Part shown: one piece after another, positions 13,372 through 61,507 of the stretch
Numbering within the stretch: the first letter of the stretch is position 1
How the letters are laid out: each line of letters starts with the position of its first letter
DNA from: Agromyces sp. G08B096
Lineage (GTDB): Bacteria; Actinomycetota; Actinomycetes; Actinomycetales; Microbacteriaceae
Direction of reading: 5' to 3'
DNA length: 64,000 bases
Assembly: GCF_040267705.1 (NCBI RefSeq)
Contig: NZ_CP158374.1
Location: 3,038,001 to 3,102,000 of the forward strand
The notes under the pieces: generated by a model
Database searches by the model: none
What the model saw: the letters and a program-made list of their open reading frames with translations, nothing else
What the model was told of the DNA's origin: nothing
Program-made: the position numbers and the translations under genes

Positions 13372-13463
13372 CCGCGTGTCCCTTCGGGCTCTGCAACACT
13401 GAGGATCGCCAGCCTAGACGACGGCCGGTCGATCTGTCCGATGCGCACGCGAAGGAACCACCC

Positions 13464-14948
13464 ATGAGCCTCATCCGCCACCACATCGACGGCCGCGAGG
13501 CCGGCGCCGCCGAGCGCACCGGCCCGGTCTTCGACCCCGCGACCGGCGTGCAGCAGCACGAGGTCGCCTTCGCCTCGACGGCGGAGGTGGAACAGGCCAT
13601 CGCCGCGGCATCCGCCGCCCTGCCCGGCTGGCGGGCGACCGGCCTCGTGAAGCGGGCCGACGTGTTCTTCCGGCTCCGTCAGCTGCTCGTCGAGCGGCAG
13701 GACGAACTCGCCGCGATCATCACCAGCCAGCACGGCAAGGTGCTCTCCGACGCCAAGGGCGAGATCAGCCGCGGCATCGAGAACATCGAGTTCGCCGCGG
13801 GGCTCGTGCACCTGCTGAAGGGCGAGCACAGCGAGCAGGTCGCCCGCGGCGTCGACGTCCACTCCGTGAAGCAGCCCGTCGGCGTCGTCGGCTGCATCAC
13901 GCCGTTCAACTTCCCGGTCATGGTGCCGCTCTGGATGGTCTCCTCGGCGATCGCCTGCGGCAACACCGTGGTGCTGAAGCCGAGCGAGAAGGACCCGGGC
14001 GCCTCCGTGTTCCTCGCCCGCCTCTTCGAGGAGGCCGGGCTGCCCGCGGGTGTGCTGAACGTCGTGCACGGCGACAAGGTCGCCGTCGACGCCATCCTCG
14101 ACTCCCCCGTCATGAAGGCCGTGAGCTTCGTCGGCTCGACGCCGATCGCGAAGTCGATCTACGAGCGGGCCTCCTCGAACGGCAAGCGCGTGCAGGCCCT
14201 CGGCGGGGCGAAGAACCACATGGTCGTCATGCCCGACGCCGACCTCGACTCCGCGGCCGACGCCGCCGTCTCCGCCGCGTACGGCTCGGCCGGCGAGCGC
14301 TGCATGGCCGTGTCGGTGCTCGTCGCCGTCGGCGACGTCGCCGACCCGCTGATCGAGCGGGTCGCCTCGCGCATGGCGGCGCTGAAGATCGGCGCCGGCA
14401 CGGATGCCTCGAGCGAGATGGGTCCCCTCATCACCCGCGAGCACCGCGACAAGGTCGCGTCGTACGTCACCGGCGCGGCCGCCGAGGGCGCGACCGTGGT
14501 GGTCGACGGCACGCAGGCCGAGTTCGACGGCGACGGCTTCTTCATCGGCACCTCGCTCATCGACCACGTGCGCCCCGGCATGAAGGTCTACGAGGACGAG
14601 ATCTTCGGCCCGGTGCTCTCGGTCGTCCGGGTCGGCACCTACGAGGAGGCGGTCGAGCTCGTGAACGCGAACCGCTTCGCGAACGGCGTGGCGGTCTTCA
14701 CCCGCGACGGCCGCACCGCGCGCCAGTTCGAGTTCGACATCGAGGTCGGCATGGTCGGCGTGAACGTGCCCATCCCGGTGCCGATCGGCGCCTTCTCGTT
14801 CGGCGGATGGAAGGACTCGCTGTTCGGCGACTCGCACATCTACGGCCCCGAGTCGATCCACTTCTACACCCGCTCGAAGGTCGTGACCACCCGCTGGCCG
14901 AACCCGTCCGAGTCGCAGATCAACCTCGGCTTCCCGAGCAACCACTGA
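13464..14948 (+). CDS. mmsA: CoA-acylating methylmalonate-semialdehyde dehydrogenase
   Basis: A 494-residue aldehyde dehydrogenase of the MmsA/IolA branch, converting (methyl)malonate semialdehyde to acetyl- or propionyl-CoA in valine, beta-alanine, pyrimidine or inositol breakdown. The CoA-acylating type is indicated by CITPFNFPVMVPLWM, VSFVGSTPIAKSIYERA, catalytic Cys in YGSAGERCMAVSVLV, and GWKDSLFGDSHIYGPESIHF near the end. The ATG at 13464 follows GAAGGAA. It forms a unit with the aminotransferase 11 bp downstream under divergent PucR, which fits an aminotransferase-then-MmsA route for beta-alanine or beta-aminoisobutyrate. Confidence 0.93.
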   Translation: MSLIRHHIDGREAGAAERTGPVFDPATGVQQHEVAFASTAEVEQAIAAASAALPGWRATGLVKRADVFFRLRQLLVERQDELAAIITSQHGKVLSDAKGEISRGIENIEFAAGLVHLLKGEHSEQVARGVDVHSVKQPVGVVGCITPFNFPVMVPLWMVSSAIACGNTVVLKPSEKDPGASVFLARLFEEAGLPAGVLNVVHGDKVAVDAILDSPVMKAVSFVGSTPIAKSIYERASSNGKRVQALGGAKNHMVVMPDADLDSAADAAVSAAYGSAGERCMAVSVLVAVGDVADPLIERVASRMAALKIGAGTDASSEMGPLITREHRDKVASYVTGAAAEGATVVVDGTQAEFDGDGFFIGTSLIDHVRPGMKVYEDEIFGPVLSVVRVGTYEEAVELVNANRFANGVAVFTRDGRTARQFEFDIEVGMVGVNVPIPVPIGAFSFGGWKDSLFGDSHIYGPESIHFYTRSKVVTTRWPNPSESQINLGFPSNH

Positions 14949-14959
14949 CGGAGCATCCG

Positions 14960-16399
14960 ATGACCGACCTCCTCTCAGGAACCGACACGGCCACCGACGC
15001 CGAGACGCCGGCCGCGACCTACGCCGATCGCTCGGGCGAGCGGCATCCGCTGCCCGACCTCGACGCGGACGCGCGCGTGCGCGCCGACGACCGGGCGCAC
15101 GTGTTCCACTCCTGGAGCGCGCAAGCGCTCATCGACCCGCTGCCCGTCGCGGCCGGCGAGGGCTCGACGTTCTGGGACTACCAGGGCAACGCCTACCTGG
15201 ATTTCAGCTCGCAGCTGGTGAACCTCAACCTCGGGCACCAGCACCCCGACCTCGTGGCGGCGATCCAGCAGCAGGCCGGGCGGCTCGCGACGATCCAGCC
15301 GTCGATGGCCTCCGACGTGCGCGGCGAGCTCGCCCGCCGGATCGTCGAGGTCGCACCCGGCGACCTCGACAAGGTGTTCTTCACGAACGGCGGCGCCGAC
15401 GCGAACGAGTACGCCGTGCGCCTCGCGCGTGCGGTCACCGGTCGCCGCAAGGTGCTCTCGATGTACCGCAGCTACCACGGCGGCACTGCGACGGCGATCT
15501 CGCTCACCGGCGACCCCCGGCGCTGGGCCAACGAGCCGAGCGACGGCAGCGTCGCCCACTTCCTCGGGCCGTACCCGTACCGTTCCTCGTTCCACGCCGA
15601 CACCCCCGAGCAGGAGACCGAACGCGCGCTCGCCCATCTCGAGCAGGTCATCACGCTCGAGGGCGCCTCGACGATCGCCGCCGTCATCATCGAGACCGTC
15701 GTGGGCACCAACGGCGTGCTCGTCCCCCCGCCCGGCTACCTGCAGGGCGTGCGCGAGCTGTGCGACCGGTACGGCATCGTCTACATCGCCGACGAGGTCA
15801 TGGTCGGCTTCGGCCGCATCGGCGAGTGGTTCGCCGTGAACCACTTCGGCGTGACTCCCGATCTCATCACCTTCGCGAAGGGCGTGAACTCGGGCTACGT
15901 CCCGCTCGGCGGCGTCGTCATCTCGCAGCGCATCGCCTCGCACTTCGACACGGTGGCCTTCCAGGGCGGCCTCACCTATTCGGGGCATCCGCTCGCCTGC
16001 GCGGCCGGCGTCGCGACCTTCGAGGTGTTCGAGCGCGACGGCATCCTCGAGCGCGTCCGCGACCTCGGGTCGCGCGTCGTGGAGCCGCGGCTGCGCGAGA
16101 TCGCCGCCGCGCATCCCTCGGTCGGCGAGGTGCGCGGGCTCGGCCTCTTCTGGGCGATCGAGCTGGTCCGCGACCGTGCGACGCGCGAGCCGCTCGTGCC
16201 GTTCAACGCGTCCGGTGCGGATGCCGCGCCGATGGCGGAGGTCGCAGGCGCGTGCAAGCGCGCCGGCGTGTGGCCGTTCACGCACTTCAACCGGATGCAC
16301 GTGGCACCGCCCCTGGTGATCGCCGAGGAGGAGCTGCGGCGAGGGCTCGACGTCATCGACGAGGCCCTCGCGATCGCCGACCGGTACGTCGTCGGGTAG
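14960..16399 (+). CDS. Class III PLP-dependent aminotransferase (omega-amino acid:pyruvate type)
   Basis: A 479-residue class III transaminase. The PLP-binding lysine is in LITFAKGVNSGYVPLGGVVI; other motifs are NGGADANEYAVRLARAVTG, SYHGGTATAISLTGDPRRWA, YIADEVMVGFGRIGEWFAVN and GLTYSGHPLACAAGVAT. The partner MmsA indicates that it produces malonate semialdehyde or methylmalonate semialdehyde, so beta-alanine or beta-aminoisobutyrate is the likely amino donor; GABA is an alternative. The ATG at 14960 has ACGGAG upstream. The N-terminus is about 40 residues longer than minimal family members (TYADRSGERHPLPDLDADAR). Confidence 0.88.
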   Translation: MTDLLSGTDTATDAETPAATYADRSGERHPLPDLDADARVRADDRAHVFHSWSAQALIDPLPVAAGEGSTFWDYQGNAYLDFSSQLVNLNLGHQHPDLVAAIQQQAGRLATIQPSMASDVRGELARRIVEVAPGDLDKVFFTNGGADANEYAVRLARAVTGRRKVLSMYRSYHGGTATAISLTGDPRRWANEPSDGSVAHFLGPYPYRSSFHADTPEQETERALAHLEQVITLEGASTIAAVIIETVVGTNGVLVPPPGYLQGVRELCDRYGIVYIADEVMVGFGRIGEWFAVNHFGVTPDLITFAKGVNSGYVPLGGVVISQRIASHFDTVAFQGGLTYSGHPLACAAGVATFEVFERDGILERVRDLGSRVVEPRLREIAAAHPSVGEVRGLGLFWAIELVRDRATREPLVPFNASGADAAPMAEVAGACKRAGVWPFTHFNRMHVAPPLVIAEEELRRGLDVIDEALAIADRYVVG

Positions 16400-16504: not shown

Positions 16505-16852
16505 ATGCATCACCTGAGGAACGGCGCAGCCCTGGCCGCCGCCGCCGGATTCCTGCTCGCGCTGGGCGCGGCGTCTCCGGCGACGGCGGCGGGCAGCGCC
16601 GTCTGTCCGCAGACGGACGGCTGGACGAAGGTCGAGGAGGTCGCGGGCGACGCGACCTCGATCGGCTTCGCCGTGCCCGACGGCTACAAGGTCGTCGCGA
16701 CGTGTGTGAAGAGCTCGACCGTCGTGGCGTACGCCGAGGTCGACGAGACCGACTGGGTCGAGTTCGAGTCACCCGCGTTCAACGGCAGAGGCACCCCGAA
16801 GGCCATCAGCCACTACGCGTACGTGCTCGTGGAGGACGACGACCGGAGGTAG
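16505..16852 (+). CDS. Small secreted protein of unknown function
   Basis: A 115-residue protein. Residues 1-29 are a Sec signal peptide (basic MHHLRNG, hydrophobic core, ending SPATAA). The mature part of about 86 residues has two cysteines (in SAVCPQTDG and VATCVKSST) that may form a disulfide. It is beta-rich by appearance, with DGYKVVATCVKSSTVVAYAE. The ATG at 16505 follows GAAGGGGG; an upstream in-frame ATG adds 19 non-signal residues and is not supported. I do not recognise the family. Confidence 0.7.
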   Translation: MHHLRNGAALAAAAGFLLALGAASPATAAGSAVCPQTDGWTKVEEVAGDATSIGFAVPDGYKVVATCVKSSTVVAYAEVDETDWVEFESPAFNGRGTPKAISHYAYVLVEDDDRR

Positions 16853-16891: not shown

Positions 16892-18406
16892 ATGGACTCC
16901 GAGGCGACGCCCGGCGGCATGGCCCGGCGGACCTTCCTGGCCGCCGCGCTCGCCGGCACCGCCTCCGTCGTCCTCGCGAGCTGCACCGCACCCGAGCCGA
17001 CGCCGGTGCCGAGCACGACCCCTCCGCCCTCGCCGAGCCCCACCGCCACGACGGCCCCGCCGACGCTGCCGCCCGGAGTCCCCGCCCCGACGGCGATGCG
17101 GCGCAGCAGATGGGCGGCCGACCCCTTCGCCCGCGGCGCCTTCAGCTTCGACGCGGTCGGCTCGACCTCCAACCTCCGGGCCGATCTCTCCGCACCCGTC
17201 GCCGACCGGATCTGGTTCGCCGGCGAGGCGTGCTCCATGGACGCGCCCGGCACGCTGCACGGTGCGCTCGCCTCCGGTCTCGCGGCCGCGGACTCCGTCG
17301 CGCGCACCGCGGAGGACGGCGAACGCATCGCGGTGGTCGGCGCCGGCCTCGCCGGCCTCGCCGCCGCGAATCGGCTCGTCGAGCGCGGGTACGACGTCGT
17401 CGTCATCGAAGCCCGCGACCGCATCGGCGGGCGCATCCGCTCGGCCGATGACGAGGCCCTCACGGGCCGGCCGCGAGGCACGATCGAGCTCGGCGCGATG
17501 CTCGTCGCCGACGACGAGGCTCTCGCCGAGCTGCTCGACGAGGCCGGCGTCGAGGTCGGGCCGCTGCAGCCTCCCGTCGACGCGCGAACGCTCGAGGGCG
17601 TGTGGGCGCCGATCCAGCCCACCGGCATCGACGCGATCACGGCCGCGCGCGCGTGGGCGGAGACCTGGCCCTTCGACGTCGGCCTCACGACCGCGCTCGC
17701 CGCGAGCGGCGCCGGGGACCTGTCGACGGAACCCGACACCGAAGGTGTGCCCGGCCCGGCCCCCGCCGACTGGCTCGGCTACACGCTGCAGAGCGGCGTG
17801 CAGCCGCTCACCGGGGCACCGGCCCGCCTGGTCTCCGCGCGGGCCTTCGACCCCGCACGACTCTCGCAGCCGGCATCCCTGGTCACGGGCCGGCTCGCCG
17901 ACGTGGTCGACGAGCTCGCGGCATCCGTCGACGTGGCGATCTCCAGCGTCGTCACCCGCATCGCCTACGACGACCGGCGCGTGAGCCTGCGCCTCGAGAC
18001 CGGCGAGTCGCTTCGCGTGGACCGAGTCGTCGTGACCGCCCCGCTCGGCGTCCTGCAGACCGACACCATCCGATTCTCGCCCCGCCTGCCGCGCACGCAC
18101 CAGCACGCGGTCTCGGTGCTCGGCATGGGCGTCGTCGACCTCGTCTGGCTGCGCTTCGACGAGGCGTTCTGGCGCACCGGCGCCGCGGGCGACCCCGTGC
18201 GCGAGGTGCTCACCGTCGTCGGCGAGACACCCGTCGTGGCTGCCTGGATCGACGCCGGCCTCGCCGGCGACGAACCCGTGCTCGCGGGAGTCATCGCCGG
18301 AGAGCAGGCTCGGCGGCTGGAGGAACTGGACGACGACGAGTTCCGCGACGAGGTGCTCGCCGCGCTCGCCCCGTTCGTCGCCGCCGCGCCCACAGGCGGC
18401 GGTTGA
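16892..18406 (+). CDS. Tat-exported lipoprotein amine oxidase with circularly permuted FAD domain
   Basis: A 504-residue flavin amine oxidase-like protein. Residues 10-31 are a twin-arginine lipoprotein signal (ARRTFLAAALAG, lipobox LASC with Cys31), then a Pro/Thr/Ser linker to about residue 68. Residues 71-130 contain the segment normally found at the C-terminus of monoamine oxidases (RSRWAADPFARGAFSF, WFAGEA, PGTLHGALASG). Only then comes the normally N-terminal Rossmann FAD motif (VVGAGLAGLAAANRL, residues 148-162; VVIEARDRIGGRI). The substrate domain follows, and the protein ends LAPFVAAAP, just where canonical enzymes run into the RW-DPFARG motif. All parts are present but cyclically reordered. 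The start uses a leaderless TAGCCT promoter. The substrate is unknown. Confidence 0.85.
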   Translation: MDSEATPGGMARRTFLAAALAGTASVVLASCTAPEPTPVPSTTPPPSPSPTATTAPPTLPPGVPAPTAMRRSRWAADPFARGAFSFDAVGSTSNLRADLSAPVADRIWFAGEACSMDAPGTLHGALASGLAAADSVARTAEDGERIAVVGAGLAGLAAANRLVERGYDVVVIEARDRIGGRIRSADDEALTGRPRGTIELGAMLVADDEALAELLDEAGVEVGPLQPPVDARTLEGVWAPIQPTGIDAITAARAWAETWPFDVGLTTALAASGAGDLSTEPDTEGVPGPAPADWLGYTLQSGVQPLTGAPARLVSARAFDPARLSQPASLVTGRLADVVDELAASVDVAISSVVTRIAYDDRRVSLRLETGESLRVDRVVVTAPLGVLQTDTIRFSPRLPRTHQHAVSVLGMGVVDLVWLRFDEAFWRTGAAGDPVREVLTVVGETPVVAAWIDAGLAGDEPVLAGVIAGEQARRLEELDDDEFRDEVLAALAPFVAAAPTGGG

Positions 18407-19025
18407 GGGCGACGAGCCCCGCCGTCACGGCCACGAAGATCGTCAGGCACAGCAGGCAGTACAGCACCACGCCCGACCAGCCGCCCACCTGCGTCTCGTC
18501 GAGGAAGAAGTATGGGAACCAGCCCACGTCCTGTCCGCGCACGAGCGTGTACCCGAGCCACAGCGTCGGATAGGCGAGGACCCAGCCGATCGTCGACCAC
18601 GGCACGCGCGGGTTCACCGCCATAATGCTGTCCGTCGTCCACGCGACGAGCGCGAGCGCCGGCACCACGAAATGCAGCAGCGTGTCCGACCACGGCACCT
18701 CGATGCGGTAGTCGCGCGTCGAGGCCTGACTGACGATGAGCCCGAAGACGATGCCCGAGACCACGACGTACACCGTCGCGATCGTGCGGACGATCCCGAG
18801 CCAGGCGGGATCGCGGGGCGCCGCCAGCGCGAACACGCCGCCGACGACCAGCACGAGCACGGCGAGGAACGCCGACTGGATCGTGAAGTAGCTGAAGAAG
18901 TTCGCCGTCGCGAAGAAGCGGAACCCCAGCACGTACTGGAAGTTGCCGACGATGGCCACGACCTCGAGCACCGCGACCGCGAGGCGGAATCCGCCCAGGA
19001 ACCGGCGCGCGGTACGCGGGGACAT
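18291..19025 (-). CDS. Pr6Pr-family integral membrane protein
   Basis: A 244-residue protein with about six transmembrane helices spread over residues 13-205, matching the Pr6Pr/FAR-17a-like family (GNFQYVLGFRFFATANFFSY, FTIQSAFLAV, PWSDTLLHFVVPALALVAW, PYFFLDETQVGGWSGVVLY). Function is unknown. The minus-strand TACCGT-N6-ATG arrangement predicts a leaderless start at 19025. The last 38 residues, an Arg-rich tail beginning near NRRLWARRRRTG, are encoded entirely antisense to the 3' end of the amine oxidase gene (116-bp overlap), so the tail probably arose by stop-codon loss. Confidence 0.8.
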   Translation of the reverse strand: MSPRTARRFLGGFRLAVAVLEVVAIVGNFQYVLGFRFFATANFFSYFTIQSAFLAVLVLVVGGVFALAAPRDPAWLGIVRTIATVYVVVSGIVFGLIVSQASTRDYRIEVPWSDTLLHFVVPALALVAWTTDSIMAVNPRVPWSTIGWVLAYPTLWLGYTLVRGQDVGWFPYFFLDETQVGGWSGVVLYCLLCLTIFVAVTAGLVALNRRLWARRRRTGRARRAPRRGTRRRPVPPAAEPALRR

Positions 19026-59268: not shown

Positions 59269-60143
59269 TGCACGGTCTTTCCGGTGGTGCGGGGTACCAC
59301 GATCAGCGGCACCGGGAGCTCGCGCAGCATCTTCGATGCCGTCGAGCCGAGGAACAGTCGCGAGGGGGCGGCCAGCCGGCTGGAGCCGACGAGCACGACC
59401 TCGCCGGCGTGCCACTCGAGCGCCCGGACGGACTCCTCGATGGTCTCGCCGGTCGCGACCGTGGCGGTCGCCTCGACGCCGGCGGGCAGCGCGGCGCGTG
59501 CGTCGTCGAGGAGACGTTCGGCGCTCACCGTGCTCGTGAGCTCGACGAGGTCGGTGTCGACGCCCGAGGGCAGATCGACCGGCACGAGCGAGAGCAGGCG
59601 GAGCGGTGCGTGCACGGCCCCGGCGAGCGCGACGGAGGCGTCGAGCACGGGGCCGGGCTTGTCGCCGACCGCTGCGGTCACGCGCGTGACGCCCTGCCCG
59701 AGGGCGACCTCACGCGACCCGACGGGGGCGAGCGCGACGGGCACGTCGGAGGAGTGCAGCAGCTCGTTCGCGACCGAGCCGATGCGGGTGCGGCCGAACA
59801 GCCCGCCGCGGGCGGCGCCCACGACGATGAGGGCGGCGTCGAACTCGTGCGCCGCCTCGACGAGGCCGGCGGCGAAGGACTCCGCGTAGCGGATGTGCAG
59901 CGACTGCGGCACGGTGTCGCCGAGACGCGACGACGCCTCGGCGAGCCAGCCCTGCGAGCGCTGCTTCACGAGCCGCTCGTACGCGGGGTCGCGCGGCACG
60001 ACGCCGCCGCGGGCCTCGATGGGCAGCACCATGACCACCTCGAGCAGCGCCTCCGCGGCCGCCGCGATGCGGGCCGCCAGGGCGAGGGCGTCGGCCCCGG
60101 AGTCGTCGGCGGTGTAGCCGACGAGGATGCGCAGGTCGGTCAC
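59265..60143 (-). CDS. Tandem-domain universal stress protein
   Basis: A 292-residue protein with two UspA domains (residues 1-148 and 150-290). Each ends in the nucleotide-binding pattern G-x2-G-x9-G-S/T or a variant: VGAARGGLFGRTRIGSVANE in the first and VGSSRLAAPSRLFLGSTASK in the second. The GTG at 60143 overlaps the oxidase stop by four bases, with GAGGAAACC upstream. It is embedded between transporter and oxidase genes, a common place for USPs that modulate APC permeases in actinobacteria. Confidence 0.9.
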   Translation of the reverse strand: MTDLRILVGYTADDSGADALALAARIAAAAEALLEVVMVLPIEARGGVVPRDPAYERLVKQRSQGWLAEASSRLGDTVPQSLHIRYAESFAAGLVEAAHEFDAALIVVGAARGGLFGRTRIGSVANELLHSSDVPVALAPVGSREVALGQGVTRVTAAVGDKPGPVLDASVALAGAVHAPLRLLSLVPVDLPSGVDTDLVELTSTVSAERLLDDARAALPAGVEATATVATGETIEESVRALEWHAGEVVLVGSSRLAAPSRLFLGSTASKMLRELPVPLIVVPRTTGKTVQ

Positions 60144-61507
60144 GAGGTTTCCTCGACGAGGCGGTCGGCGACGAGGCGGCCCATGCGGATAGCCCCGTCG
60201 ACGTGCTGGTAGCCCTTGCCGGCCAGGTCGGAGCAGGCGAACGAGATCGGGCCGACGGGGGTGCGCAGGTCGGCGCCGTAGCGGGCGAGGCCGCCCATGT
60301 CGAAGCTCGCCGCGTACGCGCCGCGGGTCCACTCCTCGCTGCCCCAGTCGCTCTCGTAGTAGACGACGGGGTTCAGCGCCTCGTCGCCGTAGTAGTGCGA
60401 CAGCGACTCGAGGATGCGCGCCTTCCGCTCCTCGGCCGAGAGGGCGAACACGCCGTCGGCCTCCTCGTCGGAGACGAACCCGACGAGCGTGCCGCGCGGG
60501 TCGCCGTGCAGCGTGTTGTCGTAGGCCTCGTGGCACAGCTCGTACGGGCTGAACGCCGTGCCAGAGAGCCCCTGCTCACGCCAGAACGGCGTCTCGTAGA
60601 CCGCGTGCACCTTGATCACGAAGCCCATCGACAGGTGCTGGTGCAGCTGCTGCTGCCGGCGGGGCAGCGGCGGCTCGTACGAAATACGGCTGTAGAGCAC
60701 GGGCGCGAGGGCGAGCACGACGCGCTGCGCGTGCACTTCGAGCGAGTCGGTGACGACGGCGACGCCGCGCTCAGGGGCATCCGGCGACCAGCGGATCGTG
60801 CGCACCGGCTGACCCAGCCGCACCGCGTCGCCGAGGCGCTCCGCGAGGCGCAGCGGCACCTGCTGCAGGCCGCCGACGACGCGCTTGTCGAGGATGAAAT
60901 CGGCGTCGACGAGGTTCGAGAACGAGCCCGCGGAGGCCGCCATGAGCAGCGCCTGCAGGGCGGAGAACGCGTGCGCGGGCTTGGTCAGCATGGCGCCGGC
61001 GATGAACATGCCGATGTTCAGCCGCGCCTCCTCGTCGTCGGTCTGCGTCTCGAGCCAGTGCGCGAACGAGATCTCGTCGAGCTCCTTGGCGCGCGGATGC
61101 GCCCACGGGGCATCCGGATCGATCTCGGCGACCAACGCATCGAGCTTCTCGATGAGGCCGACGATCTCGTTCTCCGTCGGCGCCGGCACCGGGAAGATGT
61201 CGCCTTCGAAGAGCCGCCGCTCGCCGTCTTCGCCGATGTAGACGTTCTCGCCCTCGCGGTAGCGCGAGTAGGTCTCGAGTCCCAGCTCGTCGAGGGTCTC
61301 GATGAGCGCGTCCTGGTCGGGCGAGACCCACTGGCCGCCGATCTCGAGCGTCGCCCCATCGATGTCGTCGGTCCAGAGCCGGCCGCCGACGCGGTCGCGG
61401 GCTTCCAGCACGACGACCGAGCGCCCCGCCTCCTTCAGCCGGGTGGCCGCGGTGAGGCCGGCGGCGCCGGCGCCGACGATGACGACGTCGCAGTCGATGC
61501 GTTCCAT
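60140..61507 (-). CDS. puo: Putrescine oxidase-like flavin monoamine oxidase
   Basis: A 455-residue FAD amine oxidase, cytoplasmic, oxidising putrescine to 4-aminobutanal and hydrogen peroxide in homologues. The domain order is canonical: Rossmann motif VVIVGAGAAGLTAATRLKEA at residues 7-26, VVVLEARDRVGGRLWTDDID, DGATLEIGGQWVSPDQDALI, and the C-terminal FAD motif ISFACSDLAGKGYQHVDGAI. This provides a useful in-window contrast with the permuted oxidase at 16892. It lies between the semialdehyde dehydrogenase and USP genes in one operon. Confidence 0.88.
   Translation of the reverse strand: MERIDCDVVIVGAGAAGLTAATRLKEAGRSVVVLEARDRVGGRLWTDDIDGATLEIGGQWVSPDQDALIETLDELGLETYSRYREGENVYIGEDGERRLFEGDIFPVPAPTENEIVGLIEKLDALVAEIDPDAPWAHPRAKELDEISFAHWLETQTDDEEARLNIGMFIAGAMLTKPAHAFSALQALLMAASAGSFSNLVDADFILDKRVVGGLQQVPLRLAERLGDAVRLGQPVRTIRWSPDAPERGVAVVTDSLEVHAQRVVLALAPVLYSRISYEPPLPRRQQQLHQHLSMGFVIKVHAVYETPFWREQGLSGTAFSPYELCHEAYDNTLHGDPRGTLVGFVSDEEADGVFALSAEERKARILESLSHYYGDEALNPVVYYESDWGSEEWTRGAYAASFDMGGLARYGADLRTPVGPISFACSDLAGKGYQHVDGAIRMGRLVADRLVEETS

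Follow-up and report, generated by a model that had tools for sequence, protein, structure and literature searches.

The gene at positions 16892-18406 (+) of the window, by which we mean the whole 64,000-nucleotide stretch analysed here, encodes a 504-residue protein that is, judged from its sequence, a circularly permuted member of the flavin amine oxidase family (Pfam PF01593). The reading that we prefer, at a probability of about 0.55, is that of a natural circular permutant: a predicted FAD lipoprotein of the cell surface with a dedicated partner, a membrane protein of the Pr6Pr family, and probably not a standard amine oxidase that uses oxygen. The fold is known, but the order of its blocks, the loss of the active-site lysine and the Pr6Pr partner appear to be new, and the gene pair suggests an undescribed two-part system in some soil-type bacteria. 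The preliminary description of this DNA had missed the wide spread of the gene in its bacterial family, the convergent Pr6Pr gene and the replacement of the active-site Lys by Leu.

Segment order in the 504-residue protein

LSD1, MAO and the polyamine oxidases all belong to the flavin amine oxidase family, whose members bind FAD through a GxGxxG motif, a Glu that closes the second strand, a GGR motif and a GEx motif. The canonical order of PF01593 runs from the Rossmann segment through the substrate domain to the C-terminal FAD segment. In the window protein, the block at residues 62-138 stands ahead of that at residues 143-203 instead. The open reading frame and motifs that had been described were confirmed, and the features are as follows.

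16892..18406, +: circularly permuted flavin amine oxidase-family lipoprotein, 504 aa (profile, phmmer and six-frame scan)
16919, +: alternative possible start, M10
16925..16930, +: Tat twin arginine, R12-R13
16982..16984, +: lipobox Cys31 (VLASC)
16985..17074, +: linker rich in Pro, Thr and Ser, residues 32-61 (sequence; lower pLDDT)
17075..17305, +: C-terminal-type FAD block at the front, residues 62-138 (RW..DPFARGAFSF, WFAGEA, PGTLHGALASG; LSD2 match and block HMM)
17318..17500, +: N-terminal-type Rossmann FAD block, residues 143-203 (GAGLAG, E173, GGR; PF01593, LSD2 and block HMM)
17504..18388, +: middle block or substrate domain, residues 205-499, ending LAPFV where the C-terminal block would start
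18140..18142, +: Leu417, at the family active-site Lys position (LSD1 Lys661; alignment columns)
18291..19025, -: Pr6Pr family membrane protein gene, convergent partner, 244 aa (NF038065)
18291..18406, unstranded: overlap of the two convergent frames, 116 bp including the stop codons (110 bp without them)
60140..61507, -: canonical-order paralogue of putrescine-oxidase type, internal control (PF01593 and block HMM)

A circular permutation had been proposed for this protein, and three comparisons bear it out. The PF01593 profile matches the 504-residue chain well above its cut-off (E 1.8e-56, 192.8 bits versus 19.8), but in three separate stretches, whereas the putrescine-oxidase-type paralogue is matched in one (residues 16-450 to profile positions 2-442). 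When the protein is aligned by phmmer to LSD2 (4gu0), residues 143-193 correspond to chain positions 336-384, residues 305-493 to 499-692, and residues 63-137 to 700-774, so that what comes first in the query comes last in the chain. Finally, in a scan of all six frames of the window (open reading frames of at least 30 aa), the C-terminal block occurs once in the protein (E 1.2e-36, ORF residues 65-140), directly ahead of the Rossmann block (E 1.2e-24, ORF residues 146-206), which is followed by the middle block (E 7.9e-113). Since this single C-terminal block precedes the Rossmann block, the front block is not an extra copy. Both halves of the protein are accordingly homologous to one parent and stand in swapped order, with neither half duplicated. 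The same scan placed the blocks of the putrescine-oxidase-type paralogue in canonical order, as had been claimed, although its gene lies on the minus strand and the earlier assignment had to be corrected in that respect.

The residues expected to hold the cofactor (G150, A151, G152 and G155, E173, G179, G180 and R181, G111 and E112) are invariant in 25 aligned members, as are W255, D262, W427 and W452 in the middle block. Export by the Tat pathway and lipidation at Cys31 had been predicted, and the motifs hold up, with R12, R13 and C31 unchanged throughout the same 25 rows. An AlphaFold2 model of the protein is of high confidence overall (pLDDT 90.9, pTM 0.86), with lower values at the linker, where the mean pLDDT is 58 for residues 31-40, 73 for residues 41-50 and 76 for residues 51-60. 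Sequential aligners put residues 137-500 alone of this model onto known folds, leaving the front block outside the alignments.

Distribution and origins of the permuted order

The window comes from a genome assembled as a single contig of 3.59 Mb. A search for homologues with the same order, which the preliminary description had suggested, found them in abundance. Within Agromyces, 57 of 60 genomes carry a colinear match (32 of the 57 were order-tested), with the match of G021 falling in fragments over two contigs, and three genomes (G011, G017 and G051) have weak matches only. Among the sampled Microbacteriaceae, which represent a selection from the family and not every genome, the permuted gene is found in 60 of 199 genomes and in 26 of 85 genera; the order was tested directly in 42 of the 60, and the other 18 were assigned by a colinear match of at least 39% identity. 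Motifs or block HMMs were used for these 42 because the range of a match can mislead: one candidate (L071) seemed permuted by its match range (70-486) and was rejected as canonical once its blocks had been located.

The C-terminal motif precedes the Rossmann motif in all 58 loci (56 + 2). In the first protein search, 119 of the best 120 of 262 matches are permuted, and the remaining one (P0075) is without the block at its annotated start. The nonsynonymous to synonymous ratio (dN/dS) is 0.09-0.33 across 13 gene pairs of 68-97% identity, which indicates that the permuted gene is under purifying selection. The preliminary description had itself named two ways in which the order could be spurious, by misassembly or by fusion of an extra front block to a protein that also retains its C-terminal one. 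Neither has any appreciable probability: the identical order recurs in dozens of genomes, the window protein has one copy of the block, and in none of the 162 permuted proteins (among the best 120 matches of 262 and the best 120 of 729) is the block present at both ends. The artefact and duplicate-block readings were rejected on these grounds.

Permuted proteins also occur outside the Microbacteriaceae. A class-level search of 98 genomes yielded one (L068), plus another at a contig edge (L069), and when L068 was used as the query, the best 120 of 729 matches comprised 43 permuted and 77 canonical proteins. A scan of named genomes gave 47 canonical and 2 permuted reading frames, with 48 partial ones. 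The permuted pair is from Pseudomonadota: the protein of Cochlodiniinecator piscidefendens (L080) has the twin arginine, and that of Pseudomonas delhiensis (L081, 5917-7200, +) keeps the active-site Lys and has no visible twin-arginine signal.

Did the permuted order arise once or repeatedly? For tree building, sequences were rotated to one common order and rows were selected by hand, the last tree holding 44 permuted and 41 canonical sequences (85 rows); the putrescine oxidase of the window (P0003) was excluded from the 77- and 85-row analyses as a long branch, and L041 from the 85-row analyses as a near-duplicate. The permuted rows are scattered on these trees, which need five or six changes of order (six on the 85-row tree), and none of 200 bootstrap trees groups them all. 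However, a single permuted clade is not rejected by the AU test (p 0.085 with 77 rows, p 0.068 with 85). Recurrent permutation of flavin amine oxidases is therefore suggested by the several tree positions and goes no further than that, a single origin being neither shown nor rejected at p 0.068.

A possible evolutionary intermediate comes from G097, a small Microbacteriaceae genome. Its permuted protein (L182, 2212-3735, -) keeps both the Lys and the WIH motif, its 5.5-kb locus is devoid of a Pr6Pr gene, and it adjoins the Microbacteriaceae clade with modest support (82/83). This combination fits a history in which the order changed before the Pr6Pr partner was acquired and the Lys lost, a sequence that we infer from this single intermediate.

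The convergent Pr6Pr gene and the surrounding locus

The 244-residue product of the convergent gene matches NCBIfam NF038065 (E 3e-34, 118.5 bits versus a cut-off of 30). In a comparison of the window with 20 fetched loci (21 loci in 20 genera), the convergent oxidase and Pr6Pr pair is present in every one, and each of the other neighbouring reading frames, second Pr6Pr copies aside, matches at most two other loci of the 21. Over three locus analyses (50 + 1 + 8), 59 of 60 oxidase-bearing genomes of the family have the convergent Pr6Pr gene; the sixtieth (G103) could not be tested, since its oxidase contig stops about 30 bp downstream. Within the family, Pr6Pr genes are frequent, being found in 168 of 199 Microbacteriaceae genomes, also in those without the oxidase. 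The convergent partners, on the other hand, are of a distinct kind: 28 of them form one clade (100/99), together with two 5'-side copies of one genus, and this clade is separate from 20 hand-chosen unpaired Pr6Pr proteins and one further flanking copy.

A search with the window's Pr6Pr protein found its strongest matches almost only in oxidase-bearing genomes. Two of the strong matches from genomes without the oxidase were examined: one (G206) scores as the unpaired type, and the other (G088) scores between the two types but close to the paired one, with no oxidase in the 10-kb locus around it. No Pr6Pr gene was found at 87 other homologue loci, many of them weak or partial homologues (flanks of 1.5 kb in 7, up to 6 kb in 80), or at the loci of L080, L081, L180, L182 and L183. 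In two genera (g26 and g77; L153, L159 and L172; G135 and G248), Pr6Pr genes lie on both sides of the oxidase. The window's own genome has a second Pr6Pr gene outside the window (L184, G000:C1:3015000-3016200), which is of the unpaired type.

Why has the pair been kept? Convergent genes would not normally share a transcript, and the functional link between the oxidase and Pr6Pr is one that we infer from gene neighbourhood. The frames overlap in 16 of 21 pairs, and such a 3' overlap could lock the two genes together. It is nevertheless improbable that the pair is kept solely in this way, with no shared function: the frames are separate in five pairs (by 8-32 bp in four of them and by 799 bp in the fifth), the paired Pr6Pr proteins are a clade of their own, and in two genera an extra Pr6Pr gene flanks the oxidase at its 5' end. 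To our knowledge, no function has been assigned to Pr6Pr. Its matches to Pfam are weak (best E 0.0041, in one of 14 members), there is no match to the PDB at E 1, and the name itself retrieved nothing in a full-text search of the open-licence literature. The conserved pair gives the family a testable partner.

The rest of the neighbourhood is variable. Upstream on the same strand (13461-16396, +) are genes for an aldehyde dehydrogenase (Aldedh, 3.1e-140) and a class-III aminotransferase (PRK06062-type, 9.8e-222), which may be linked to omega-amino acid catabolism. Neither of these neighbours recurs in more than one of the 20 fetched loci, and for this reason an amine-catabolism context was not used in assigning a role. 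Immediately upstream of the oxidase (16505-16852, +) is the gene for a 115-residue protein that has an apparent signal peptide by eye and no Pfam or NCBIfam match. A promoter scan gave no promoter-like site, and a terminator scan gave one terminator-like site, which is about the level of chance.

Active site, proposed role and known relatives

The preliminary description held that every element of a monoamine-oxidase-type flavoprotein was present. This does not apply to the active site, where Leu417 takes the position of LSD1 Lys661 and there is no W-[ILV]-H motif. In the amine oxidase-type fold, according to two papers (PMC12272882, PMC3184146), this Lys keeps a water molecule at the flavin N5 and accelerates the reaction with oxygen. 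Of the 85 aligned rows, 41 are canonical, and 39 of these have the Lys. The permuted rows divide into 21 of the Microbacteriaceae clade to which the Pr6Pr-linked oxidases belong, where only 4 have it, and 23 from outside that clade, where 20 do; the neighbourhood was examined for 16 of the 21 clade proteins. (The remaining three of the 23, P0147, P0150 and P0168, have Arg at this position.) Of the 41 canonical rows, 36 have an intact W-[ILV]-H motif; of the 21 clade rows, none does. A tally by motif among the matches listed agrees: none of the 107 proteins readable in the first search has Lys, as against 38 of 41 in the second.

With Leu417 and no W-[ILV]-H motif, amine oxidase activity is doubtful, and a dehydrogenase or other redox role is favoured because, in a protein that lacks the oxygen-promoting Lys, reaction with oxygen is probably slow. 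The sequence shows that the C-terminal FAD segment has come to stand ahead of the Rossmann segment, the chain now ending in the loop where that segment once began. In the scheme that we propose, the permuted protein would fold with FAD in the cytoplasm and be exported in folded form by Tat; Cys31 would then be lipidated, and the Pro/Thr-rich tether would hold the protein on the outer face of the membrane. In the Microbacteriaceae, the protein would be one half of a two-gene module with its dedicated Pr6Pr membrane protein, and the two presumably act on the same process. Most likely, the permuted protein is a dehydrogenase or other redox flavoprotein that passes electrons or a product to its membrane partner, and not a peroxide-making amine oxidase. 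Pr6Pr would then be a candidate electron acceptor or product handler. A point counter to this reading is that the Lys is kept in 4 of the 21 clade rows.

If the Lys were dispensable, the protein could instead be a classic exported amine oxidase, making hydrogen peroxide from oxygen with its order changed and its chemistry intact. The best matches of the permuted protein are LSD1, LSD2 and the polyamine oxidases, its FAD-binding residues are conserved, and most permuted proteins outside the Microbacteriaceae clade retain the Lys; the scarcity of the Lys within the clade and the complete absence there of an intact W-[ILV]-H motif, which most canonical rows possess, make this unlikely. Just as unlikely is a flavoprotein that no longer catalyses a reaction and, partnered by Pr6Pr in the membrane, acts as a lipoprotein for ligand binding or sensing. 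Such a role would account for the loss of the Lys and WIH under purifying selection while the FAD-binding motifs, Tat signal and lipobox were retained, but not so readily for the invariant W255, D262, W427 and W452 of the middle block or for the rows that still have the Lys. The redox flavoprotein with a dedicated membrane partner is preferred to both. A broader and decidedly tentative proposal, to which we would give less than an even chance, is that circular permutation at this one hinge happened repeatedly among exported flavin amine oxidases, and that one permuted Microbacteriaceae lineage shed the almost universal Lys and now forms, outside the cytoplasm, one half of a new two-component redox module whose other half is its dedicated Pr6Pr.

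No described example was known to the preliminary description, and none came to light here: there is no permuted amine oxidase or flavoenzyme among the papers listed by full-text searches of the open-licence literature, and term look-up gave none in two permutation-detection papers (PMC12667903, PMC2395249), a topic page (PMC3320104) and a Rossmann survey (PMC6957218). Permuted and canonical homologues co-exist in the window's genome (16892-18406 and 61507-60140), so that the effects of segment order and of the loss of the Lys can be compared side by side.

How, then, does the permuted protein compare with known systems? The oxidase domain of LSD1 and LSD2 (KDM1A and KDM1B) has the unpermuted order, and the LSD2 match starts only at this domain (chain residue 336); these enzymes have the active-site Lys where the window protein has Leu, and the latter is a predicted exported lipoprotein of bacteria. 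Maize polyamine oxidase (1b37) and putrescine oxidase (2yg3; 61507-60140 in the window) have the PF01593 fold and the FAD motifs in common with the permuted protein, but the polyamine and putrescine oxidases are in canonical order, as tested on the window's own paralogue. Canonical homologues with Tat-type N-termini (for example L066, L067 and L183) come closer, sharing the twin arginine and the same three blocks; unlike the permuted protein, they follow the Rossmann-middle-C-terminal order and have both the Lys and the WIH motif. For the gene pair, one paper (PMC12272882) describes flavin amine oxidases of the NicA2 type, in which a cytochrome c encoded by a neighbouring gene, and not oxygen, is the acceptor. 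These provide a precedent for an adjacent gene that marks the electron acceptor of a flavin amine oxidase, although the partner of NicA2 is a cytochrome c in the same operon, whereas that in the window is the product of a convergent membrane-protein gene.
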